Below are positions 18,689 to 46,545 of a stretch of 64,000 nucleotides of DNA, piece by piece. The notes beneath the pieces are model-generated. The model made no database searches, was not told where the DNA came from, and saw only the letters and a program-made list of their open reading frames with translations. The stretch lies in contig NZ_AP023243.1 of the NCBI RefSeq assembly GCF_016756495.1, positions 6,948,501 through 7,012,500 of the forward strand, in the 5' to 3' direction. Both the position numbers and the translations under genes were made by a program. Source of the DNA: Mesorhizobium sp. 113-3-3 (GTDB lineage: Bacteria > Pseudomonadota > Alphaproteobacteria > Rhizobiales > Rhizobiaceae). Within the stretch, counting starts at the first letter, position 1, and each line of letters starts with the position of its first letter.

Positions 18689-20176
18689 ATGAACCTTCCT
18701 CCCAATGCGCTGCGGATCGACCAGGACGGCTATGACGTTCGCGGCTTCTCGCACGGACTTTACATCGACGGCAGATGGCGACCATCTTCCGATGGCCGGG
18801 TCATTGACGTCGTCGATCCCTCGTCGGGGTCTGTGATTGCAGCGGTCCCCGACGCGACGCTTGAGGATGCCTTGGCCGCCGTCGATGCGGCTGGCAAGGC
18901 GGCGACGGCATGGCGGGAGACGGCGCCACGCAAGCGCTCGGAAATCCTCAGGCGCTGTTTCGAACTCATGGTCGAACGGTCGGAAACGCTTGCCATGCTG
19001 ATCTCGCTGGAGAACGGCAAGGCTCTGCGCGACGCGCGCGGCGAGGTTGCGTACGCCGCCGAGTTCTTCCGCTGGAACGCGGAAGAAGCGGTTCGCATCA
19101 CCGGCGAGTTCGGCACAGCGCCGTCCGGCACCAACCGCATCGTGGTCGACTACGAGCCGATCGGCATTTGCGTGCTGATCACGCCCTGGAATTTTCCTGC
19201 CGCGATGGCGACACGAAAGATCGCGCCGGCATTGGCCGCCGGTTGCACGGTGATCCTGAAGCCGGCCAGCGAAACGCCGCTGACGGCCTATGCGCTGGCC
19301 GCGCTCTACAACGAGGCCGGCGTCCCGGCGGGCGTCGTCAACGTGCTCACCACGACCAGTCCCGGTCCGCTGACATCGGCCATGCTGGCCGATCCGCGGG
19401 TCAGGAAGCTTTCTTTCACCGGTTCGACAGGCGTCGGACGAAGCCTGCTTGGCGAAGCCGCCAGGCATGTGGTCTCCTGCTCGATGGAACTCGGCGGCAA
19501 TGCACCCTTCGTCGTCTTCGACGATGCCGACCTCGATGCCGCGCTCGACGGCGCCATGATCGCAAAGATGCGCAATGCCGGCGAGGCCTGTACGGCCGCC
19601 AATCGCATCTATGTTCAGTCGGGCATCCATGACGCATTCGCCGACGGCCTTCGCAAGCGCATGGCAGCTCTCAAGGTCGGACCAGGCATGAGCGCGGATA
19701 CCGAGTGCGGACCGATGATCACCAGAAAGGCGGTCGACAAGATCGACCGCCTGGTCAAGGACGCCGTGGCCCGGGGAGCCAAGGTGCTTTGCGGCGGCTC
19801 GATCCCGGAAGAGGAAGGCTTCTTTTACCCGCCGACGGTCCTGTCGCAGGTTTCGCCCGACGCCGACATGGCGCATGAGGAGATTTTCGGGCCGGTAGCG
19901 CCCATCACGCGATTCGAGACCGAGGCCGAAGCCATCATGCACGCCAACAACACGGAATACGGTCTTGCCGCCTACATCTATACGCGCGATGTAGGCCGGG
20001 GATTGCGTGTGGCATCGAGGATCGAGGCCGGCATGATCGGCCTCAACCGGGGGCTGATGTCGGACCCCGCGGCACCCTTCGGCGGCGTCAAGCAGAGCGG
20101 CCTGGGTCGCGAGGGCGGCCAGCATCACGGCATCGCCGAGTTCATGGAGGCGAAGTACATCGCCGTGACCTTCTGA
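18689..20176 (+). CDS. NAD(P)-dependent aldehyde dehydrogenase, succinate-semialdehyde type
   Basis: A 495-residue aldehyde dehydrogenase starting at ATG 18689; the frame extends 48 bases further up into the preceding gene but needs no earlier start. It has TPWNFP (165-170), FTGSTGVG (243-250), catalytic Glu267 in MELGGNAPF and catalytic Cys301 in GEACTAANR. Sequence around these residues is closest to the succinate-semialdehyde dehydrogenase (GabD) group. It probably takes the semialdehyde made by the adjacent iron alcohol dehydrogenase to the dicarboxylate. The operon continues with a hydrolase two bases downstream. Confidence 0.87.
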   Translation: MNLPPNALRIDQDGYDVRGFSHGLYIDGRWRPSSDGRVIDVVDPSSGSVIAAVPDATLEDALAAVDAAGKAATAWRETAPRKRSEILRRCFELMVERSETLAMLISLENGKALRDARGEVAYAAEFFRWNAEEAVRITGEFGTAPSGTNRIVVDYEPIGICVLITPWNFPAAMATRKIAPALAAGCTVILKPASETPLTAYALAALYNEAGVPAGVVNVLTTTSPGPLTSAMLADPRVRKLSFTGSTGVGRSLLGEAARHVVSCSMELGGNAPFVVFDDADLDAALDGAMIAKMRNAGEACTAANRIYVQSGIHDAFADGLRKRMAALKVGPGMSADTECGPMITRKAVDKIDRLVKDAVARGAKVLCGGSIPEEEGFFYPPTVLSQVSPDADMAHEEIFGPVAPITRFETEAEAIMHANNTEYGLAAYIYTRDVGRGLRVASRIEAGMIGLNRGLMSDPAAPFGGVKQSGLGREGGQHHGIAEFMEAKYIAVTF

Positions 20177-35199: not shown

Positions 35200-36741
35200 A
35201 TGGACACGACAGCCCAGCACGGCACGGTGAAGGAGAGGCCAGCGGCCTCCACGCCACGCCTGACGCTGTCCGGCATCTCGAAAAGCTTTCCCGGTGTGCG
35301 CGCGCTGCACAATGTCAGCCTGTCGCTCTATCCCGGCCAAGTGACGGCACTGATCGGCGAGAACGGTGCCGGCAAGTCGACGCTGGTCAAGATCATGACC
35401 GGTATCTACCAACCGGATTCCGGCACGATCAGCATCGACGGCCAGGCGGTCACGCTGCCCAGCGCGCATGCCGCCTTCGGCCACGGCGTCACCGCCATCC
35501 ACCAGGAAACCGTGCTGTTCGACGATCTCAGCGTCGCCGAAAACATCTTTCTCGGCCACGCGCCGCGCACGCGTTTCGGCACCATCGACTGGCGCACGAT
35601 GCGCAAGAATGCACGCGAAGTGCTCGACACCATGCATGCCGGCCACATCGACGCCGATGCGCGACTGAAGGATCTCGGCATCGCCAACAAGCATCTGGTC
35701 GCCGTGGCCCGCGCCATGTCGATCGACGCCCAGATCGTCATCATGGACGAACCGACCGCCGCGCTGTCGATGAAAGAGATCGAGGAGCTGTTTTTGCTCA
35801 TCGAATTCCTCAAGGAGGAAGGCAAAGCGATCCTGTTTATCAGCCACAAGTTCGACGAGATCTACCGCATCGCCGACCGCTACACCGTGTTCCGCGACGG
35901 CGAGATGGTCGGCGAAGGCCTGATCAAGGATGCCGGCCAGAGCCAGATCGTGCGCATGATGGTCGGCCGTTCGGTCGACCACATCTTCCCGCAGCGCAAG
36001 GCCGAGATCGGCGCGCCGGTGCTCTCCGTTGCCGGCCTGTCGCATCCGACCGAATTCAGGGATATCGGCTTCGAACTGCACAAGGGCGAAATCCTCGGCT
36101 TCTACGGCCTCGTCGGCGCCGGCCGCAGCGAGGTGATGCAGGCGATATCAGGCATTACCCGCACATCGGGCGGGACGATCACGCTGGACGGCAAGGCGAT
36201 CGCGCCGAAGTCGGCGGCGGACTCAATCGAGGCCGGCATCGTCTACGTGCCCGAGGAACGCGGCAAGCAAGGCGTGGTGATCGGCCTGCCGATCTTCCAG
36301 AACGTCTCGCTGCCGTCGCTCAACCGCACCTCCAAGTCCGGTCTGCTGCGGCTGGCGGAAGAGTTTTCGCTCGCCCGATCCTACACCGAACGGCTCGACC
36401 TCAGGGCCTCTTCGCTCAGCCAGGATGTCGGCACGCTGTCGGGCGGCAACCAGCAGAAGATCGTCATCGCCAAATGGCTGGCGACCGCGCCCAAGGTGAT
36501 CATCCTGGACGAGCCGACCAAGGGCATCGACATTGGTTCCAAGGCCGCTGTGCACGGCTTCATGGCCGAACTGGTGGCGCAGGGCCTGTCGGTGATCATG
36601 GTGTCGTCGGAACTGCCGGAGATTCTCGGCATGTCCGACCGTGTCGTAGTCATGCGCGAAGGCCTGGTCGCTGCGGTCTACGACAATAAGGGGCTGGACG
36701 CCGAGACGCTGGTCCGGACGGCAGCGGGGATCGCGGCATGA
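35200..36741 (+). CDS. rhaT: L-rhamnose ABC transporter ATP-binding protein RhaT
   Basis: A 513-residue tandem ATPase. Domain 1 has Walker A GENGAGKST and MDEPTAALS. Domain 2 has GLVGAGRSEV, LSGGNQQK and LDEPTKGIDIG. This is the RbsA-like layout of monosaccharide importers. It ends in an ATGA overlap with rhaP. The name follows the rhizobial nomenclature and must not be confused with the enteric RhaT rhamnose/proton symporter, an unrelated protein. Confidence 0.92.
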   Translation: MDTTAQHGTVKERPAASTPRLTLSGISKSFPGVRALHNVSLSLYPGQVTALIGENGAGKSTLVKIMTGIYQPDSGTISIDGQAVTLPSAHAAFGHGVTAIHQETVLFDDLSVAENIFLGHAPRTRFGTIDWRTMRKNAREVLDTMHAGHIDADARLKDLGIANKHLVAVARAMSIDAQIVIMDEPTAALSMKEIEELFLLIEFLKEEGKAILFISHKFDEIYRIADRYTVFRDGEMVGEGLIKDAGQSQIVRMMVGRSVDHIFPQRKAEIGAPVLSVAGLSHPTEFRDIGFELHKGEILGFYGLVGAGRSEVMQAISGITRTSGGTITLDGKAIAPKSAADSIEAGIVYVPEERGKQGVVIGLPIFQNVSLPSLNRTSKSGLLRLAEEFSLARSYTERLDLRASSLSQDVGTLSGGNQQKIVIAKWLATAPKVIILDEPTKGIDIGSKAAVHGFMAELVAQGLSVIMVSSELPEILGMSDRVVVMREGLVAAVYDNKGLDAETLVRTAAGIAA

Positions 36742-37715
36742 GGGCTTTCCTGAAATACCGCGAGATCTGGCTGGCCGCGGCGATCGTCGTTTTGATCGGC
36801 CTGATCTCGACGCGTTTTCCCGCCTTCGCCGATCCCGGCAATCTGCGCCAGGTGTTCAACGACACCTCGATCCTGATGATCCTGGCGCTCGGCCAGATGG
36901 TGGTGATCCTGACGCGATCGATCGACCTGTCGATGGCCTCGAACCTGTGCTTCACCGGCATGGTGGTGGCGATGCTGAACGCAGCACACCCGGCGATCCC
37001 GATTCCGCTGCTGATCGTCATCGCACTCGCCGTCGGGCTGGTGCTCGGTGCCATCAATGGCCTGCTCGTGTGGCGGCTGAACATCCCTTCGATCGTCGTC
37101 ACATTGGGTACGCTCACCATCTATCGCGGCGCCACCTTCGTCCTGTCCGGCGGCGCCTGGGTGAATGCCGACAAGATGAGCCCTGAGTTCATCGGCTTCC
37201 AGCGCGCCGCCTTCCTCGGCATTCCGGTGCTGTCGTGGATCGCCATTCTGGTCATCGCGCTGTTCTTCGTGCTGATGACGCGGACGGCACTCGGCCGCTC
37301 TATCTATGCCATCGGTGTCAACCCGACAGCATCGGTCTATACCGGCATCGATGTCGGCCGCACGAAATTCATCGTCTTCTGCATCTCCGGCATGATCGGC
37401 GGCCTTGCCGGCTACCTCTGGATCTCGCGCTATGTGATCGCCTCGGTCGAGGTCGCCAGTGGCTATGAGCTCAACATCATCGCCGCCTGCGTCATCGGCG
37501 GCATCTCGATCGCAGGCGGTATCGGCTCGGTCGGCGGCGCGGTGCTCGGCGCGCTGTTTCTCGGCATCATCTCCAACGCGTTGCCGGTCATCAACATCTC
37601 ACCGTTCTGGCAGATGGCGATTTCGGGCAGCGCCATCATCCTGGCCGTCGTGCTCAACGCGCGCGGCGAACGCCAGCAGGGGCGCATCATCCTGAGAAAG
37701 ATGGAGGCGGCATGA
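36738..37715 (+). CDS. rhaP: L-rhamnose ABC transporter permease RhaP
   Basis: A 325-residue RbsC-family permease with about ten membrane segments. It carries LTRSIDLSMASNLCF, NGLLVWRLNIPSIVVTLGTL and an ACVIGGISIAGGIGSV loop for contact with the ATPase. It overlaps rhaT and rhaQ by four bases each (ATGA), so the three are translationally coupled. RhaP and RhaQ form the heterodimeric channel. Confidence 0.92.
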   Translation: MRAFLKYREIWLAAAIVVLIGLISTRFPAFADPGNLRQVFNDTSILMILALGQMVVILTRSIDLSMASNLCFTGMVVAMLNAAHPAIPIPLLIVIALAVGLVLGAINGLLVWRLNIPSIVVTLGTLTIYRGATFVLSGGAWVNADKMSPEFIGFQRAAFLGIPVLSWIAILVIALFFVLMTRTALGRSIYAIGVNPTASVYTGIDVGRTKFIVFCISGMIGGLAGYLWISRYVIASVEVASGYELNIIAACVIGGISIAGGIGSVGGAVLGALFLGIISNALPVINISPFWQMAISGSAIILAVVLNARGERQQGRIILRKMEAA

Positions 37716-38707
37716 GCGACATCCCTGCCCCGCGCCACATCCCCGATCGGCTCGACAAGCCGTTCCGCTCGGCGATCTTTTCCTGGGAGGCGCTGCTGGT
37801 CGTGGTGGCTGTCGCCATCTTCGCCATCAACAGCTTCGCCTCGCCTTATTTCCTCGACCCTTATTCGCTGTCGGACCTGACCTTCAATTTCACCGAGAAG
37901 GGTCTGATCGCCTTTGCCATGGCGTTGCTGATCATTTCGGGCGAGATCGACCTGTCGGTTGCGGCTATCATCGCTCTCGCCTCGACCATGATGGGCATGG
38001 CCGTGCAGGCAGGCGCCGGCACACCGGTGCTGGTGGCGATCGGCATCTTCGTCGGGCTTGGCTGCGGCGCCTTCAACGGGCTCTTGGTGACCAGGCTTGG
38101 GCTGCCGTCGATCGTCGTCACCATCGGCACGATGAGCCTGTTTCGCGGCATCGCCTTCATCATCCTCGGCGACCAGGCCTATAAGGGTTATCCCTCGAGC
38201 TTCGCCTTCTTCGGCCAGGGCTATGTCTGGTGGGTGGTGTCGTTCGAGCTCGTGCTCTTCCTCATCGCGGCCGTTGTCTACTGGTTCCTGCTGCACCGCA
38301 CGAGTTTCGGCCGCCGTGTCTTCGCCATCGGCAACAATCCGGTCGCGGCACAGTTTTCCGGCGTGCGCGTCGGGCGTATCAAATTCATCCTGTTCTGCCT
38401 GACCGGGCTGATGTCGGGCATCGCCTCGGTGCTGATCACTTCGCGGCTCGGCTCGACAAGGCCGTCGATCGCGCAGGGTTATGAGCTGGAAGTCATCACC
38501 ATGGTGGTGCTCGGCGGCGTCAGCATCCTCGGCGGCGCCGGCAGCATTCTCGGCGTCGTGCTCGCCGCCTTCATCATGGGGCTGGTGACGTTCGGGCTCG
38601 GCCTGCTCAACGTGCCCGGCATTGTCATGTCGATCTTCATCGGCCTGCTGCTGATCATCGTCATCGCCCTGCCGATCGTCTGGCGGCGGCTGCGCGGGGG
38701 GCACTGA
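37712..38707 (+). CDS. rhaQ: L-rhamnose ABC transporter permease RhaQ
   Basis: A 331-residue permease of the same family as RhaP, with [36 protein letters not shown] and [16 protein letters not shown]. It overlaps the genes on both sides (4 bases with rhaP, 1 base with rhaU). Having two different permease genes distinguishes this locus from the single-permease sugar transporter at 13-16 kb. Confidence 0.92.
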
Positions 38708-39024
38708 TGCCGGAAAAGTACGCGTTCAAGATGAAGCTCAAGCCCGGCATGAAGGCCGAGTACAGGAAACGTCACGACGAGATCTGGCCGTCGCTGGTTA
38801 CGCTCTTGAAACAGGCCGGCGTGTCCGATTACTCGATCCATCTCGATGAAGAGACCGACATCCTGTTCGGCGTGCTGTGGCGGCGCGACGATCACGGCAT
38901 GGGTGAATTGCCCGGACATCCGGTGATGCAGCGCTGGTGGGCACACATGGCCGACATCATGGAGACGAAGCCGGACAACGAGCCGGTGGCCGTGCCCTTG
39001 GAAACTGTGTTCCACATGGCATGA
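38707..39024 (+). CDS. rhaU: L-rhamnose mutarotase RhaU
   Basis: A 105-residue protein of the RhaM/RhaU mutarotase family: [24 protein letters not shown] at the N-terminus with the catalytic His, then [15 protein letters not shown] and [14 protein letters not shown]. It interconverts the alpha and beta anomers of L-rhamnose so that isomerase or kinase can act. It shares one base with the rhaQ stop (TGATG) and overlaps rhaK by ATGA. Confidence 0.93.
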
Positions 39025-40397
39025 GTGCTCTGCGCCACATCGCCGTCATCGACATCGGCAAGACCAACGCCAAGGTGGCGCTGGTCGACCTCGCGACCTT
39101 GAGCGAGGTGGCGCTGCGCAGGATGGCCAATGCGCCGCTGCGGCAGGCGCCCTACCCGCATCACGATGTCGAGGCGCTGTGGACATTCATCCTCGACAGC
39201 CTGGCCGGCCTCAACCGCGAACAGCGCATCGACGCCATTTCGATCACCACCCATGGCGCAACCGGCGCGCTGGTCGATGCCGCGGGCGACCTTGTGCTGC
39301 CTGTGCTCGACTATGAGTTCGATGGTCCCGACAGGCTGGCGGCGGAGTATGAGACGGTTCGCCCGCCCTTTTCCGAGACCGGCACGCCGCGCCTGCCGCT
39401 CGGTCTCAATCTCGGCGCACAGTTCTTCTGGCAGCAGAAAACCTTCCCGACGGAATTCGCCAAGGCCGCCACGCTGCTGATGTACCCGCAATACTGGGCG
39501 CTGCGCCTGACCGGCATCGCGGCCAACGAGGTAACCTCGCTTGGTTGCCACACCGATCTGTGGAACCCGTGGACCGCTGACTTTTCGTCACTGGTCGATC
39601 GGATGGGTTGGCGCCGCCTGATGGCACCGGTGCGGCCGGCCGGGGATAGCCTCGGCCCTATTCTGCCGGCGCTTGCCGCGCGAACCGGGCTCGATGCGCA
39701 AACCCCTGTGTTCTGCGGCCTGCACGATTCCAACGCTTCGCTGCTGCCGCATCTCCTGTCCGACGCGCCACCTTTCTCGGTCGTCTCGACCGGGACCTGG
39801 GTGGTGTCGATGGCGGTGGGCGGCAGGACGGTCGACCTCGATCCGGCGCGTGATACGTTGGTCAACGTCAACGCGCTCGGCGCCTCCGTCCCTTCGGCTC
39901 GTTTCATGGGTGGTCGCGAATTCTCGCTGCTGACCGAAGGGCAGCCGGAGAACTGGACCGAAGACGATATTGGCGCCGTGCTGGCGCAAAAGACGCTGCT
40001 GCTGCCTTCGACCCAGCAAGGATCAGGTCCATTCCCACACCAGGCCGCGACCTGGCTTGATGCCGACGGCATCAACAATGGCCGGCGCTTCGCCGCCATC
40101 TCGTTCTATCTGGCGCTGATGACGGCGACCTGCCTCGAGCTGATCGGCGCCGATGGCCCGACCACGGTCGAAGGACCTTTTGCCCGCAACCGGCTCTTCG
40201 TCGGCATGCTGGCGGCAGGCACAGGCCGCACCGTCATCGCCTCCGAGGCCGCCACCGGAACCAGCATCGGCGCGGCACTGCTGGCGTCCGATCAGGTCGC
40301 GACGCATGGCAAGGGGGAAAGAATAGAACCGCCGACCGACCCGGCCTGGGCCGGCTATGCCAGCGCCTGGCGCGCGGCGGTCGAAGCACGGGGCTGA
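39021..40397 (+). CDS. rhaK: Sugar kinase RhaK (FGGY family)
   Basis: A 458-residue FGGY carbohydrate kinase starting at the ATG that overlaps the rhaU stop. The phosphate loop is [18 protein letters not shown], followed by [29 protein letters not shown] and [13 protein letters not shown]. RhaK phosphorylates rhamnulose, and in R. leguminosarum it is also needed for activity of the RhaSTPQ transporter. This is the last gene of the cluster; the next gene is convergent and begins right after the stop. Confidence 0.9.
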
Positions 40398-42224
40398 TCA
40401 GAGGATCCGCTTGCCGAAGGCCGACATGACGAAGTTCACGGTGTCGGCGCCAATCCTGGGCTCCAGATCAGCGGTCAGGCCCGAGACATCCATCGACAGC
40501 AGGCCGCCGGAGAGTGCGATCGCCTCCATCGCCTGATGCGTCTCGCGCACGGTCAGCCCGCCGGAGCCGGCCGCCCAGCCGGCGAATTCGGTGGCCGTCA
40601 GGGAATAGCTGACATGAAAGCCTTGTGTGCCCGATGTGGCGATGCGAATCGCCTCATGCATCAGGTCGCGCATGCCCATGGCGTCGATATCGGTCATGGT
40701 GAAGGCCGATACGCGCGAATCCTTCAGCACCCGCGCTTCGGCCGGATCGGCATGTCGCAGGCCGACGATGACGACATTTTCCGGCGACAGCTGCGGCTGC
40801 AGCGCGCCGGCCTTGTGGTCGAGACCGAGCGCACGCGCCAGAACCGAACCCTCCGGCAGGTCGATGCCCTCCTCGTCCTCGGGCATCAGCGCGGCGATGG
40901 AATCGATCCAGATCAGGCCGAAGGAGTGCGTCGCGCGCGCGGTCGCCGTCAGCGCCTTGTGGGCGATGCGGCGATCGGCGCCAGCGGCGAGTCGGATCAA
41001 CCCTGAAGGCGGCCGCTCGACATCGGCGAGTTCCACGACGTCGAAATTCATCGCCTCCAGCCGCGCGCCGGTTCCCTCGCGGGCGAGGATGCCGGCGGCT
41101 TCCTGCTCGGCCGAGATCGACACCATCTTGCGGCCGGAAAAGTCGGCGACGTCGTGCATCGGCGCCTTCTCGACATATTCCGACGTCATCGCCAGGAGCA
41201 TGGCGCCGTAGCTCATGCGGAAGGCGACGCGGTCGCCGACGGCGGGCCGCGGGTCGGCATCCTGCACGTCGAGCAGCAGATGATCGCTGGAGGCGCCGAG
41301 CACGCGAATCCCCTTGGCGATCGGCGTCAGCCCCTCGACCAGCACATCCTCGCGGCCGATATTGGCGATGGCGCGCAGCCTGTCGCCCTCGTCGGGAAAA
41401 ACCGGCTGGTTGCCGAAGGCGTCGTAGCCGGACTCGCCGATCGGCCGTGACGGCTTCAGCTTGACCTCGATGATGTCGCTGGTCAGGCGGCAGGCATCGG
41501 GTTCGAGTTCGGCCCATGGCACATCGCGGAAGGTCTCGACGCCGCCCTGCAGGATCGCCTCGCCGACCCTGAGATTGTTGATGCCGGCCGGCAGCTTGCC
41601 TTCGAGCAGCAGCGTGAGCGATGACGAGGCACCGCCCGAGATCCAATCGAGGCTTTTGCCCGACAGACGCTCGGTCTTGTAGGCATGGGCGACGAGCTGG
41701 CCGAGATTCTCCGGCGTCGGCATGATGGCGCCGAAACAGCCGAGATTGGTGCCTATGCCGGCGATTCGCACGCCCTTGAACTCAAGGATTCGCTCGACGG
41801 TGGGGATCAGGTCGCTCGGCCAGATGCCTTCGCGGAGATCGCCGAGATCGATCATCAGCATGATGTCGTGGACGCGGCCCATGCGCTCGGCGATGCGCGA
41901 GATCTCGCGGATTGTGGCGAGTTCCGACTGCAGGCTGATGTCGACGGTGCGCACAACCTCCTCGACGCGCGCCATGGGCGGGCTGCGCAGCAGCATGATC
42001 GGCGCATTGATGCCGCTGTCGCGCAGCCGGCGGATGTTTTCGAAACGCGATTCGGCGATGCCGGCGACGCCGCCACGCAGCATGGCGCGCGCCACTTGCG
42101 GCATGCCGCACATGCCCTTGGTGACGCCGAACACCTTGATGCCAGACGATGCGCAGCGGTCGACGATGGTTCGGGCGTTGCGCTCGATGCGGCCAAGGTC
42201 GATGGCGACTTGCGGTCCCGACAT
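40398..42224 (-). CDS. Orr-type PLP amino-acid racemase fused to a metal-site-less ureohydrolase domain
   Basis: A 608-residue fusion from ATG 42224 (a TTG at 42284 is possible). Residues 1 to about 365 are a fold-III PLP racemase of the ornithine/alanine racemase (Orr, YhfX-like) type: Lys36 in FGVTKGMCG, IDLGDLREGIWP, GIGTNLGCFG and ISGGASSSLTLLLEG. Residues about 370-608 have the arginase/agmatinase order: IWIDSIAALMP (438-448), PENVVIVGLR (481), FTMTDID, GFHVSYSLTATEF (535-547), GGLTVRETHQAMEAIA and the ending FGKRIL. The metal ligands are missing: DAHAD is DSIAA, SxDxDxxDP is S539-Y-S-L-T-A-T-E-F, and GGDHS is AGADRR. The second domain is therefore probably not catalytic. Substrate unknown; ornithine or arginine is a guess. 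Confidence 0.8.
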   Translation of the reverse strand: MSGPQVAIDLGRIERNARTIVDRCASSGIKVFGVTKGMCGMPQVARAMLRGGVAGIAESRFENIRRLRDSGINAPIMLLRSPPMARVEEVVRTVDISLQSELATIREISRIAERMGRVHDIMLMIDLGDLREGIWPSDLIPTVERILEFKGVRIAGIGTNLGCFGAIMPTPENLGQLVAHAYKTERLSGKSLDWISGGASSSLTLLLEGKLPAGINNLRVGEAILQGGVETFRDVPWAELEPDACRLTSDIIEVKLKPSRPIGESGYDAFGNQPVFPDEGDRLRAIANIGREDVLVEGLTPIAKGIRVLGASSDHLLLDVQDADPRPAVGDRVAFRMSYGAMLLAMTSEYVEKAPMHDVADFSGRKMVSISAEQEAAGILAREGTGARLEAMNFDVVELADVERPPSGLIRLAAGADRRIAHKALTATARATHSFGLIWIDSIAALMPEDEEGIDLPEGSVLARALGLDHKAGALQPQLSPENVVIVGLRHADPAEARVLKDSRVSAFTMTDIDAMGMRDLMHEAIRIATSGTQGFHVSYSLTATEFAGWAAGSGGLTVRETHQAMEAIALSGGLLSMDVSGLTADLEPRIGADTVNFVMSAFGKRIL

Positions 42225-42316
42225 TTTTTCACTCAGCGTTTGTAGAATCTGTCTGCCAGATGCATCTTCCAGATCGTCGCCCAATGCTTGTCAAACGTAG
42301 CGCAGTGACGGTCTCA

Positions 42317-42580
42317 ATGTTGGAAACCAGAGCAATTGTATGTGGCCATGTCTTTCGATCGGAGAGACCAGTGACACTGGTCATTCATCATTCCGATGGT
42401 GAGTGGCAACTGACGTGCGGTGAACATGATCACCCCGCAGACTGCGGGGATTTCGAAGTCGTCGGTCTCCGCCATCTGACCGCCAGGCAGGATAACTTGG
42501 CACAGATTGGGCAGCTTGAGCGGGGGTGGCTTGCCGAATGGATGCAGGGCGAATGGACTCGGTGCCAACACGACGACTAG
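42317..42580 (+). CDS. Small conserved hypothetical protein
   Basis: An 87-residue soluble protein starting at ATG 42317, with ETRAIVCGHVFRSERPVTLV, then HHSDGEWQLTCGEHDHPADC, FEVVGLRHLTARQDNLAQIG and LERGWLAEWMQGEW. The C-H-V...R.V...DG.W...CG..H pattern with a closing GW.AE is found in a widespread uncharacterised family. Cys and His are suitably placed for metal binding. It diverges from the racemase fusion gene (start 42224) and converges on the D-amino-acid dehydrogenase gene, six bases from its end. Confidence 0.65.
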   Translation: MLETRAIVCGHVFRSERPVTLVIHHSDGEWQLTCGEHDHPADCGDFEVVGLRHLTARQDNLAQIGQLERGWLAEWMQGEWTRCQHDD

Positions 42581-42586
42581 TGCTCC

Positions 42587-43837
42587 TCAGTTCACGTAGA
42601 TCAACCCTTGCGGATCGATTTCAGGCTTTCGCCCGGCAACGATGTCGGCCAGGAATTTTCCGGAGCCGCAGGCCATCGTCCAGCCGACATGGCCATGGCC
42701 GGTGTCGAGATAGAGGTTTTTGTAGCGCGCCTGGCCGATGACCGGCACGGAGTTCGGCATCATCGGCCTGAGCCCCGCCCAGAGCACGGCTTTCTTCTCG
42801 TCGAACGCGCCAGGGAAAAGATCCCTGGCGGTCCGGAACATGGTGGCGAAGTCGCTGGGCTTGTGGGTTCGGTCGAAGCCGGTGAATTCGGCGGTGGAGG
42901 CCAGCCGCAGCCGGTTGCCGAGCCTGGAATAGGCCATCAGCTGGTCCTCGTCGGCGCCGCCCATGGTTGGGCCCTTGCTCTCGTCTTCCAGCGGAATGGT
43001 CGCGGTATAGCCCTTCACCGGATAGACCGGCAGGTCGATGCCGTAACGGCGGCCGAGCAGGCCGCTTTCCGGCCCCATCGAAATGACCACGGCGTCGCCT
43101 GCAATCGGACCGGCCGAGGTCATCACCGCGCGCACGCGGTCGCCGTCGATATCGAGGCCTTCGACGGTGGTATCGAACAGGAATTTGACGCCAAGCTTTT
43201 CGCTGGCATAGGCGGCGAGATTGTCGACGAACATTCTGGAATCGCCGGTCTGGTCGATCGGCGAATAGACGCCGCCGGCGATCTTTTCCTTCACGCCGGC
43301 AAGGCCCGGCTCAAGCTCGACCAGCCGGTCGCGGCCGACGATCTCGATCGGCAGGCCATGCTCGGCGAGGTAACGGTAATTGTCGGTGCCGGTGTCGAGG
43401 CTGTGCTGCGAGCGGAAGAAGTAGAGGATGCCTTTCTTGCGCTCGTCATAATGGATGCCGGTGTCGGCCGAGATGGCATTGATGCAGTCGCGCGAATAGA
43501 GCGCCAGCCGCAGCTTGACCTCACTGTTGGCGCGCAGCCGAGCCACCGTGCATTGACGCAGGAAACGCAGGCTCCAGGCAAGGAAATAGGGATCGAAGCG
43601 CAGCCTGACCTTGATGCCGAGGTCATGGTTCCAGAGCGCGCGCAAAAATGTCTTCAGAGCTGCCGGCGAGGCCCAGGCCGTGGCATCGCCCGGCGAGACC
43701 AGCCCGGCATTGGACTGGCTGGTGCCGCGCGCCGGCGCTGGATGCCGCTCGATCACGGTGACCTCGTGACCGTCGGCCGCCAAGTAATAGGCGGCGGCCG
43801 TACCGACAACGCCGGCGCCGAGCACAATTATCTTCAT
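42587..43837 (-). CDS. dadA: D-amino-acid dehydrogenase
   Basis: A 416-residue FAD enzyme of the DadA group. The dinucleotide fold is IIVLGAGVVGTAAAYYLA, followed by SQSNAGLVSPGDATAWASP. YPVKGYTATIPL lies in the substrate domain, and the C-terminal FAD contact is LYLDTGHGHVGWTMACGSGK. DadA oxidises D-amino acids to 2-oxo acids and ammonia, feeding electrons to the respiratory chain at the membrane. It is upstream, on the same strand, of the racemase fusion gene but with a plus-strand gene between, so co-transcription is uncertain; the pairing of racemase and D-amino-acid dehydrogenase is functionally sensible. Confidence 0.88.
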   Translation of the reverse strand: MKIIVLGAGVVGTAAAYYLAADGHEVTVIERHPAPARGTSQSNAGLVSPGDATAWASPAALKTFLRALWNHDLGIKVRLRFDPYFLAWSLRFLRQCTVARLRANSEVKLRLALYSRDCINAISADTGIHYDERKKGILYFFRSQHSLDTGTDNYRYLAEHGLPIEIVGRDRLVELEPGLAGVKEKIAGGVYSPIDQTGDSRMFVDNLAAYASEKLGVKFLFDTTVEGLDIDGDRVRAVMTSAGPIAGDAVVISMGPESGLLGRRYGIDLPVYPVKGYTATIPLEDESKGPTMGGADEDQLMAYSRLGNRLRLASTAEFTGFDRTHKPSDFATMFRTARDLFPGAFDEKKAVLWAGLRPMMPNSVPVIGQARYKNLYLDTGHGHVGWTMACGSGKFLADIVAGRKPEIDPQGLIYVN

Positions 43838-43939
43838 GCCATCCCCCTAAGCTCTTCGCGGCGAGGCGCCTCCACGCCGTGTCGCGACTGCTTCCATAGC
43901 GCGTCACCACGCGCCTTGCGAGCCCTTGGGGGCTTGGCT

Positions 43940-44935
43940 TCAGCCGCGCGCGGAGTTCTTGCTGGTCAGGATACGCTCCCAGGCGAGCGCATCGGCAACG
44001 ATCTGGTCGAGGTCGTCGCGTTGCGGGGTCCAGCCGAGTTCAGCCCGGGCAAGGTCCGAATTGGCGACAACAGCGGCGGCGTCACCGGCGCGGCGGTCGC
44101 CCATCTTCACCTCGAAATCGCGGCCAAAGGCACGCCGAACGCTGTCAATGACCTCGAGCACCGAATAGCCATGGCTGTAGCCGCAATTGGCGACAAGGCT
44201 CCCGCCCCCGGCGCGCAACCGCTCCAAGGCCAGCCGATGCGCCGCCGCGAGGTCGCTGACATGGATATAGTCGCGCATGCAGGTGCCGTCCGGCGTCGGG
44301 TAGTCGGTGCCGAACACCTGCATGAACGGACGCTTGCCGAGCGCGGTCTCGCAGGCAACCTTGATGAGATGCGTGGCGCCCGGCGTCGACTGGCCGGTGC
44401 GGCCCCTGGGGTCGGCGCCGGCAACGTTGAAATAGCGCAATGCGGTGTAGCGGATATCGTGCGCAAGGCCGGCATCACGCAACATCCACTCGCTCATCAG
44501 CTTGGACAGACCGTACGGCGATTCCGGCGCCAGGCGGGCATCCTCGCGCACCGGCTCCAGCCCGGCGCCGCCATAGACGGCGGCAGTCGAGGAGAAGATG
44601 AAATGCGGCACGCCCTCACGCACCGCGGTTTCGATCAGCGTGCGCGTCTTCGAGGTGTTGTTTTCGTAATAGGCGAGCGGGTCGGCGACCGATTCCGGAA
44701 CCACGATGGAACCGGCAAAATGGATGATCGCGTCGACCTTATTGTCCCTGATGATCGAACCGACCAATTCCTTGTCGGCGACATCGCCGACAACCAGCTT
44801 TGCCTCCGGCGCCACCGCCCATTCGAAGCCGGTGGAAAGCCGGTCGAGAACGACCACGCTTTCGCCCGCGTCCAGCAATTCCCAGACCATGTGGCTGCCT
44901 ATATAGCCGGCACCACCTGTCACCAAAACCGTCAT
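43940..44935 (-). CDS. galE: UDP-glucose 4-epimerase
   Basis: A 331-residue extended short-chain dehydrogenase. The start is ATG 44935, supported by GAGGA six bases upstream; the frame extends seven codons further to 44956. It has NAD-binding TGGAGYIGSH, catalytic Ser in FSSTAAVYG, and YGLSK with the catalytic Tyr and Lys. GTDYPTPDGTCMRDYIHVSDLA is the GalE hallmark (shown here as GTCMRDYIHV). It interconverts UDP-glucose and UDP-galactose for surface polysaccharide synthesis and galactose use. Confidence 0.92.
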   Translation of the reverse strand: MTVLVTGGAGYIGSHMVWELLDAGESVVVLDRLSTGFEWAVAPEAKLVVGDVADKELVGSIIRDNKVDAIIHFAGSIVVPESVADPLAYYENNTSKTRTLIETAVREGVPHFIFSSTAAVYGGAGLEPVREDARLAPESPYGLSKLMSEWMLRDAGLAHDIRYTALRYFNVAGADPRGRTGQSTPGATHLIKVACETALGKRPFMQVFGTDYPTPDGTCMRDYIHVSDLAAAHRLALERLRAGGGSLVANCGYSHGYSVLEVIDSVRRAFGRDFEVKMGDRRAGDAAAVVANSDLARAELGWTPQRDDLDQIVADALAWERILTSKNSARG

Positions 44936-45215
44936 CCGCGTCCTCGCATTATCCAAGATTTATCGGAAACTGTCTCAAACCCCGCTCTACTGGAAAGCCT
45001 GCCGCATGGCCATTAGAACCCTCGGTAACCGGCGTTCACCAAATGTGGCATCATGCTGAAACAAAAGCGATCCACAGAGCGTGTCGTGGAATGGGAATAG
45101 GCCACGATCCGCCATCGTTAGGAACAGGTGCGGGGCGTGGCATTTTGACCAAAACGGCCCGGTGGACGACCAATAGGCCAATGACTATGATCCCGCGCAA
45201 AATTGGGAAGCCGAC

Positions 45216-46493
45216 ATGAACTACCAGCGGTTCTTCGAAGAAGCGATCGACCAGCTCCATGCGGAGCGTCGCTATCGTGTCTTCGCCGACCTCGAGCGCA
45301 TCGCGGGCAAGTTTCCGCGCGCCATATGGCGTTCCAACGGCCGCGCCGAGGAAATCACCGTCTGGTGCTCCAACGACTATCTCGGCATGGGCCAGCACCC
45401 CGACGTCATCGCCGCGTTCCAGGACGCGGCCGGCAAGATGGGGTCGGGCGCCGGCGGCACCCGCAACATTTCCGGCACCTCCAACCCCCTGGTGGAACTC
45501 GAGCATGAGCTTGCCGACCTGCACGGCAAGGACGCGGCCCTGGTCTTCACCTCCGGCTTCGTCTCCAACGAAGCCTCGATCTCGACCATCGCCCGGCTCT
45601 TGCCCAATTGCCTGATCATCTCGGACGAACTGAACCACGCCTCGATGATCGAAGGCGTGCGCCGCTCCGGCGCCGAGAAGAAGATCTTCCGGCACAATGA
45701 CGTCGCGCATCTGGAAAGCCTGCTTCAGGCGGCGGGCCGCGAACGCGCCAAGCTGATCGTGTTCGAAAGCGTCTATTCGATGGATGGCGACATCGCACCG
45801 ATCCGGGAGATCGTCGAGCTCGCCGAGCGCTACAATGCCATGACCTATATCGACGAGGTCCATGCTGTGGGCATGTACGGGCCGCGCGGCGGCGGCATCA
45901 CCGAGCGCGAGGGCCTGGCCGACCGCATCGACATCATCGAAGGCACGCTGGCCAAGGCATTCGGCACGCTGGGCGGCTATATCACCGGCACCAGTGCGGT
46001 GATCGACGCGGTGCGCTCCTATGCGCCGGGCTTCATCTTCACCACGGCGCTGCCGCCGGCGATCGCGGCCGCGGCCACCACCTCGATCCGCCATCTCAAG
46101 AACTCTCAGGCCGAGCGTGACGCCCAGCAGCAGCAGGCAGCGCGGACCAAGCAGATCCTGTCTGCGGCCGGCCTGCCGGTGATGGAGTCTCCGACCCATA
46201 TCGTGCCGGTGCTGGTCGGCGATCCCGAACTCTGCAAGATGGCCAGCGACCGCCTGCTCGGCGTGCACGGCATCTACATCCAGCCGATCAACTACCCGAC
46301 CGTGCCGCGAGGCACCGAACGCCTGCGCATCACGCCGACGCCATTCCATTCCGACACGCTGATCGCGGGACTGCAGGACGCGCTGGTCGAGACCTGGGAT
46401 GCGCTCGGCATCCCCTACGGCTCCACAGGACGGCCCGCCGTGGCCAAGAGCGATCGGATCGTTCCGCTCCTGGTGCCCAAGTCGGGCGGCTGA
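45216..46493 (+). CDS. hemA: 5-aminolevulinate synthase
   Basis: A 425-residue PLP enzyme of the alpha-oxoamine synthase family, the Shemin-pathway HemA typical of Alphaproteobacteria. It has [14 protein letters not shown] (glycine-rich substrate loop), [23 protein letters not shown] and the PLP lysine Lys247 in [12 protein letters not shown]. It condenses glycine with succinyl-CoA, the first step of haem synthesis. The 280 bases upstream are non-coding and must hold the promoter; no specific operator is recognised. A palindromic repeat follows the gene. Confidence 0.95.
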
Positions 46494-46545
46494 AGCCCGT
46501 TTGAAACTCTACTCCGGCGGCCATCTGACGCGGGTTTCTGCGCTT

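Follow-up and report, generated by a model that had tools for sequence, protein, structure and literature searches.

An amino-acid racemase fused to an arginase fold that has lost its metal site in Mesorhizobium sp. 113-3-3

Results

A racemase and an arginase fold in one gene

The window, the whole stretch of 64,000 nucleotides of contig NZ_AP023243.1 that was analysed, holds at positions 40398..42224 a gene for a protein of 608 aa. The preliminary description had placed it at these coordinates, which fit, but the gene runs on the minus strand, from the ATG at 42224 to the stop at 40398-40400; over this interval the minus strand is open, and stops are found on the plus strand. All coordinates within the gene given below refer to the minus strand. 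The protein starts with a racemase domain of alanine-racemase-like PLP fold (residues 1-356, 41157..42224), continues with a linker (residues 357-365, 41130..41156; pLDDT below 50 at residues 361-363 of the AlphaFold2 model), and finishes with a pseudo-arginase domain (residues 366-608, 40401..41129), whose last residues are FGKRIL (603-608). Both parts match Pfam families above cutoff: Ala_racemase_N (PF01168) over residues 8-224 with 95.2 bits (cutoff 24.1), PLP lysine K36 included, and Arginase (PF00491) over residues 409-588 with 64.8 bits (cutoff 22). With an open minus strand and two such matches, a chance or wrong frame was rejected. A search for RNA families gave no match within 38000-46500.

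A structure prediction, named beforehand as a check, found an arginase fold in the C-terminal half: the fold predicted for the second domain is that of an arginase. At the level of NCBIfam, rocF_arginase (TIGR01229) was matched with 75.4 bits, below its cutoff of 227.6. The best NCBIfam match is racem_Orr (NF040742), aligned over residues 4-353 with 395.9 bits, below the cutoff of 480. The racemase had been described as complete and Orr-type, with Lys36 as PLP lysine; the lysine, the Pfam match and the type stand, but judged by its sequence the domain does not reach Orr itself. The racemase machinery is intact, as Lys36 (42117..42119) is K in 230 of 235 fusions (see below) and a gap in the 5 others, while R219, H315 and Y339 are each present in 235 of 235. 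Among the proteins listed, NCBI names give these fusions as 'alanine racemase', which is probably misleading. The fusion architecture already appears in one database name, 'predicted amino acid racemase/arginase family enzyme'.

The metal site is lost in all the fusions examined

The relatives reported by two protein searches numbered 2322 and 760, counting free-standing racemases. The best 120 of each were taken, which together with the window protein gave 239 different proteins, and 4 of these, shorter than 540 aa, were dropped. The 235 remaining fusions were compared with 27 free-standing arginases, each of at least 275 aa. Another 57 rows were kept outside this comparison: the 4 dropped proteins, 4 rows that are short or mixed, and P0240-P0288, which came up as closer hits in the search that gave the arginases. 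Many of P0240-P0288 are pieces of fusions (P0252, for instance, starts inside the racemase domain), and a separate alignment of the 57 found 0 to 3 metal ligands kept.

In the window protein, AGADRR (residues 414-419, 40968..40985) stands in place of GGDHS, DSIAA (441-445, 40890..40904) in place of DAHxD, and SYSLTATEF (539-547, 40584..40610) in place of SxDxDxxDP. These replacements remove five of six metal ligands and leave only the first Asp, D441 (D in 228 of 235 fusions). These motifs and the final FGKRIL are as first described. All six ligands are intact in 27 of 27 free-standing arginases, whereas among the 235 fusions, drawn from the best 120 each of 2322 and 760 relatives, none has intact arginase motifs: no ligand is kept in 1 of them, one in 174, two in 59 and three in 1. 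At position 418, where arginases have the first metal His (27 of 27), R is found in 208 fusions, as in the window protein, and H in 21 of the 235. An Asp is present at 541 in 27 and at 543 in 6 of the 235. The proton-shuttle His and the catalytic Glu are lost as well; in 109 of 235 fusions the alignment shows a gap in place of this His. A basic residue occupies 418 or 443 in 224 of 235 fusions, and could fill the empty metal pocket.

Chance is excluded as the source of the motif pattern, because 2322 and 760 relatives were reported and the same losses and retentions run through all 235 fusions. Median dN/dS was low in both parts, 0.092 in the racemase and 0.106 in the arginase domain (55 of 60 coding sequences usable, mostly from Mesorhizobium and Aminobacter; 1485 pairs, not independent of each other), which means that the fusion is under purifying selection. 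A damaged or single mutated copy is ruled out, since 235 fusions share the loss and dN/dS is low. The survey thus bears out the earlier view of the second domain as an arginase-fold pseudoenzyme; with no intact motifs among the 235 fusions, this copy is not simply a mutated pseudogene.

Residues of the subunit contact are retained

We then looked at what the dead domain had kept. Among the 27 arginases, 42 columns are identical in all, and 12 of them persist in 90% or more of the 235 fusions: G436, D441, R490, T509, M510, D514, G517, G556, R560, E561, E567 and G604. The 30 columns lost include all the metal ligands but D441, plus the catalytic His and Glu. Four of the retained residues lie at the subunit contact: D514 (40683..40685; D in 232 of 235 fusions and 27 of 27 arginases), R560 and E561 (40542..40547; 233 and 234 of 235) and E567 (40524..40526; 234 of 235). 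They correspond to D199, R249, E250 and E256 of Bacillus caldovelox arginase, counted by hand on the 1cev alignment; the same count puts D226 and D228 at metal-ligand positions. We take the four to be D204, R255, E256 and E262 of human arginase I, so that the equivalents of Asp204, Glu256 and Glu262, contact residues of the arginase-type trimer, are present as D514, E561 and E567. The chance that all four contact columns fall among a random 12 of 42 is about 0.004, a value qualified by the columns not being independent and by our having picked the four with the literature in mind, after their conservation was known.

In the arginase trimer, Arg308 is described as forming salt bridges to Glu262 and Asp204, and in B. 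caldovelox arginase, which has no Arg308, an L-Arg molecule is described at this interface (PMC7925462). The window protein stops at GKRIL, without the C-terminal tail that carries Arg308. The subunit-contact residues are retained in nearly all the fusions, though they may be kept for folding alone.

A D-amino-acid dehydrogenase gene accompanies the fusion

Directly upstream of the fusion, on the same minus strand, lies a dadA-like gene for a D-amino-acid dehydrogenase (42587..43837; NF001933, 460.6 bits, cutoff 383), separated from it by a spacer of 362 bases (42225..42586). The linkage was analysed in the 67 loci having enough upstream sequence, 10 others (short, partial or free-standing) being left out and one genome, L105/L132, being counted twice. 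A dadA-like gene was found directly upstream and on the same strand in 64 of these 67 full-length fusion loci. The gap between the two genes is 6-65 bases in 56 of the 64 (6-16 bases in 54), 114 in one and 349-374 in seven. No upstream dadA was found at L109, L110 and L131 of the 67, nor at L208 and L210; L208 and L110 are apparently the same contig. We conclude that the fusion is linked to the dehydrogenase gene.

Sequences 80-90% identical, over the aligned part, to the 362-base insert of the window were seen in L061, L086, L091, L096, L108, L112 and L115. A plus-strand open frame (42149-42580) overlaps this spacer, without Pfam match at 1e-5. Among solved structures, the nearest to the window dehydrogenase are glycine oxidases (87 bits), and no D-arginine dehydrogenase was among its matches at 1e-10. 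On the other side, tail to tail with the fusion, the plus strand at 35200-40397 carries a sugar-type ABC transporter, identified by reading the sequence only, then an L-rhamnose mutarotase and an FGGY kinase.

Free-standing racemases of the family have another neighbour: where the fusions have dadA, a DUF1611 gene adjoins the racemase in 30 of 32 loci (L016, L028-L058), the two without it being L050, on a short contig, and L057. DUF1611 is, we presume, the DgcN (D-glutamate N-acetyltransferase) family. One racemase family may serve several D-amino-acid routes.

Distribution and origin of the fusion

A full-length fusion is present in 13 of 37 genomes of the same genus; one more genome has it split over two contigs, and one has it internally deleted. 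When genomes were drawn more widely, with a threshold of 1e-20, full-length fusions turned up in 9 of 397 genomes of the order. The sample of the class yielded 1 in 385, which was the window's own, and that of the phylum 4 in 398, each belonging to the window's family; the remaining matches in these samples were racemase-only. Two Mesorhizobium losses occur with the neighbours present, at L127, where only the first 54 residues of the fusion are left, and at L135, where an internal part is missing.

In a tree with 63 sampled fusions, a single branch with a support of 100/100 separates the dead domains from the 27 arginases. The racemase-domain tree (32 fusions, 35 free-standing racemases) left a single origin unsettled: it gave 2 changes, 1 change being found in 12% of bootstrap trees, and L017 sits on a very long branch.

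A second clade can be discerned, as 100 of the 235 fusions resemble the window protein less than they do P0134, a divergent fusion of 579 aa that is named from Amaricoccus. The P0134 model is confident (pLDDT 92.8). The 50 rows listed by the structural look-up were all racemase-fold chains, with no arginase among them, which says nothing against an arginase fold there. Searched with P0134, the family of Methylobrevis gave a match in Methylobrevis alone (1 of 20), and 345 genomes of another alphaproteobacterial family gave none at 1e-90, a result that is uninformative. Of the five loci of this clade that were examined (clade B: L131, L201-L204), L131 (Methylobrevis) and L201 have an agmatinase-family gene directly upstream of the fusion; the L131 protein, the one whose metal motifs were checked, is nearest to agmatinase 4dz4 and not to a guanidinobutyrase. 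No dadA was found in the fetched stretches of the clade B loci. In L201-L204, the fusion has a MATE transporter gene as its neighbour or one gene further off, hinting at export of a product.

Gene runs of relatives suggest arginine as the substrate

On a Shinella plasmid, the fusion belongs to a run made of an agmatinase-type ureohydrolase, a 5-guanidino-2-oxopentanoate decarboxylase, an aldehyde dehydrogenase and a protein annotated as biotin carboxylase, followed by a C45 hydrolase, the D-amino-acid dehydrogenase, the fusion and a RidA-family protein. At L142 (3214-5691), the annotated biotin carboxylase and the C45 hydrolase lie inside the arginine run with no step in the pathway proposed below. 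A decarboxylase homologue was found in the run of the fusion in 7 loci (L107, L128, L129, L130, L140, L142 and L143), some records also annotating it so; that of L107 scores 752.8 bits for 5-guanidino-2-oxopentanoate decarboxylase (cutoff 500). L143 (NZ_CP084753.1), labelled Roseateles sp. XES5 (UNVERIFIED_ORG), has a Shinella-like gene run with 91-97% identity, and this species label is probably wrong. A ureohydrolase is part of the run in L107, L128, L129, L140, L105/L132 and L207, the last being the Roseateles-labelled plasmid again. The ureohydrolase of L105, beside dadA and the fusion, has its metal motifs and is closest to the P. aeruginosa guanidinobutyrase 3nio (498 bits, the next at 309). 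The fusions of L105 and L107 are 76% and 73% identical to that of the window.

The window itself has a smaller set, the dehydrogenase and the fusion, plus an aldehyde dehydrogenase of 39% identity 20 kb away (18752-20161). No homologue of the decarboxylase, the guanidinobutyrase or the Rid protein was found in the window, and the same holds for the named Mesorhizobium loci, L105 excepted. Elsewhere in this genome there is an unlinked decarboxylase-like gene, 46% identical; such a gene is present in 35 of the 37 same-genus genomes, against 13 of 37 for the full-length fusion.

Read together, the genes of these runs spell out a route from arginine to D-arginine, to 5-guanidino-2-oxopentanoate, to 4-guanidinobutyrate, and to GABA plus urea. 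Some of its steps are general knowledge and others are described in the literature (PMC5619798, PMC7268258). Iminoarginine is described as acted on by Rid2 and Rid3 and not by RidA proteins (PMC5619798). For S. meliloti IlvB1, a rhizobial homologue of AruI, a sevenfold preference for the ornithine-derived oxo acid is given (PMC7268258), so that ornithine stays a candidate. It is because of the guanidino-compound enzymes in these runs that the operons of relatives suggest arginine, rather than ornithine, as the substrate.

Discussion

What the dead domain may be for

Our best explanation, held at somewhat less than even confidence, is that the fusion is a PLP-dependent catabolic racemase, most likely of arginine, with a chemically dead arginase fold kept as a trimerising scaffold. 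The PLP racemase would convert L-arginine into D-arginine, the FAD dehydrogenase encoded next door would oxidise D-arginine to 5-guanidino-2-oxopentanoate, and in some relatives the same gene run would lead on to 4-guanidinobutyrate, then to GABA and urea. Racemases of the alanine-racemase-like fold are dimers. Arginases are described mostly as trimers or dimers of trimers, with monomeric and dimeric ones too (PMC6988801, PMC3197605). By combining racemase dimers with arginase trimers, the fusion could therefore build a racemase hexamer; the dead domain would have been retained because it still trimerises as arginases do, assembling the racemase dimers into a larger particle. A scaffold is the most likely mechanism for this domain. 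We infer that arginine is the substrate and that the domain trimerises, as well as whatever influence arginine may have on the trimer. Against arginine speak the lack of decarboxylase, guanidinobutyrase and Rid homologues in the window, the presence of the unlinked decarboxylase-like gene in far more genomes of the genus than hold the fusion, the glycine oxidases as nearest solved structures of the dehydrogenase, the oxo acid preferred by IlvB1, and the action of Rid2 and Rid3, but not RidA, on iminoarginine. The agmatinase-like ureohydrolase of Methylobrevis and the broken copies at L127 and L135 also count against the explanation as a whole. The preliminary description had offered either a regulatory ligand site or the building of an oligomer, and the oligomer now appears to be the better-supported half, because residues that the literature places at the subunit contact have been preserved. 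Binding of a ligand in the old active site finds no support, as the metal ligands other than D441, the proton-shuttle His and the catalytic Glu are gone; an arginine site at the subunit interface is possible. A doubtful addition to the scaffold reading is that free L-arginine at the D514/E567 interface makes a trimer of racemase dimers more stable and increases racemase activity. If true, arginine would switch on its own breakdown by way of a dead enzyme from the same class of substrate.

That interface is also where an arginine sensor would most plausibly reside. Here the dead domain would bind arginine at the inter-subunit Asp/Glu pair and switch or stabilise the racemase. The near-invariance of D514 (232 of 235) and E567 (234 of 235), the lack of the Arg308 tail, as in the B. 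caldovelox arginase with L-Arg at that interface (PMC7925462), and arginine as the likely substrate all speak for it. However, D514 and E567 are equally kept in ordinary arginases (27 of 27) and therefore need not mean sensing, and the old pocket is not conserved; we regard the sensor as unlikely. Distinctly unlikely, in our estimate, is a racemase of ornithine or of basic amino acids broadly, whose arginase domain would be the vestige of a former arginine-to-D-ornithine enzyme. An arginase fusion would fit a passage from arginine to ornithine, the neighbouring dehydrogenase family is not specific for arginine, IlvB1 offers a precedent (PMC7268258), and racem_Orr, an ornithine racemase, is the nearest curated family name; its 395.9 bits are nevertheless under the Orr cutoff of 480, and the runs of relatives carry guanidino-compound enzymes.

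In L131 (Methylobrevis) and L201 the gene just upstream of the fusion is of the agmatinase family, and several clade A runs hold a guanidinobutyrase-type gene. This raises another idea, that the dead domain docks onto an active ureohydrolase and joins it to the racemase. MetCb, which has five of six ligands replaced and functions as a partner subunit, pairs with MetCa in this manner (PMC11271267). Yet only 2 of the 5 clade B loci (L131, L201-L204) have such a neighbour, in the set of named loci to which L105 and L107 belong only these two showed an agmatinase-family gene, and the partner would be of agmatinase type, no sister of the dead domain, which makes docking very unlikely. That the domain is an inert remnant of a fusion, tolerated without function, we find hardly credible. 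Many genomes of the genus have no fusion or a broken one, and it is broken at L127 and L135 too, but the dN/dS of the domain is low (0.106), its contact residues are retained, and the model of P0134 is confident for the divergent clade, even though the look-up listed no arginase there. The scaffold is our preferred reading.

If that reading is right, the fold of one enzyme has been put to use, and conserved, as a scaffold within a second enzyme that acts on the same substrate, and the line between the chemistry it lost and the assembly residues it kept is sharp and testable. A D-amino-acid route would also join the ways in which rhizobia break down arginine. Arginine supplied by the plant has been proposed as a driver of nitrogen fixation in these bacteria, and a transaminase is described as making the same oxo acid, 5-guanidino-2-oxopentanoate (PMC7268258); by term count, 'racemase' and 'D-arginine' occur zero times in the main text of that paper.

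Comparison with known systems

Searching the open-access literature, which leaves most subscription journals uncovered, by title and start of abstract gave no publication on a racemase/arginase fusion. Already known are Orr-like racemases, pseudo-arginases as subunits, a decarboxylase/arginase fusion and, in one database name, the architecture itself. To judge from the open-access literature, it is new that the metal site is lost in every fusion examined, that the contact residues persist, and that an arginine gene run accompanies the fusion in relatives.

With Orr (NF040742) and the alanine/ornithine racemase family, the fusion shares the PLP lysine, conserved motifs and an alignment over the whole domain; it differs from Orr in falling below the Orr cutoff and in being fused to a pseudo-arginase. 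With bacterial arginases (B. caldovelox 1cev, Thermus 2ef5) it has in common the fold, the C-terminus and the subunit-contact residues, but five of six metal ligands and the catalytic His and Glu are lost. A fusobacterial protein treated by Mothersole in 2022 reportedly unites an ornithine decarboxylase and an arginase, arginase function being lost in some species. By the title of that paper, the partner differs, being a racemase here, and here the loss extends to all 235 fusions examined. In the dadAX operon, a D-amino-acid dehydrogenase is paired with a racemase. Like this operon and P. aeruginosa DauA/DauB, the present locus couples a D-amino-acid dehydrogenase to racemisation, but Pseudomonas is described as racemising arginine with two dehydrogenases (PMC5619798), whereas here a PLP racemase would do so. 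MetCb, the metal-free partner subunit of metformin hydrolase, is likewise described as a pseudoenzyme of the arginase family, five of its six ligands having been replaced (PMC11271267); it is a separate protein that pairs with an active sister, unlike the dead domain studied here, which shares its chain with a PLP racemase.
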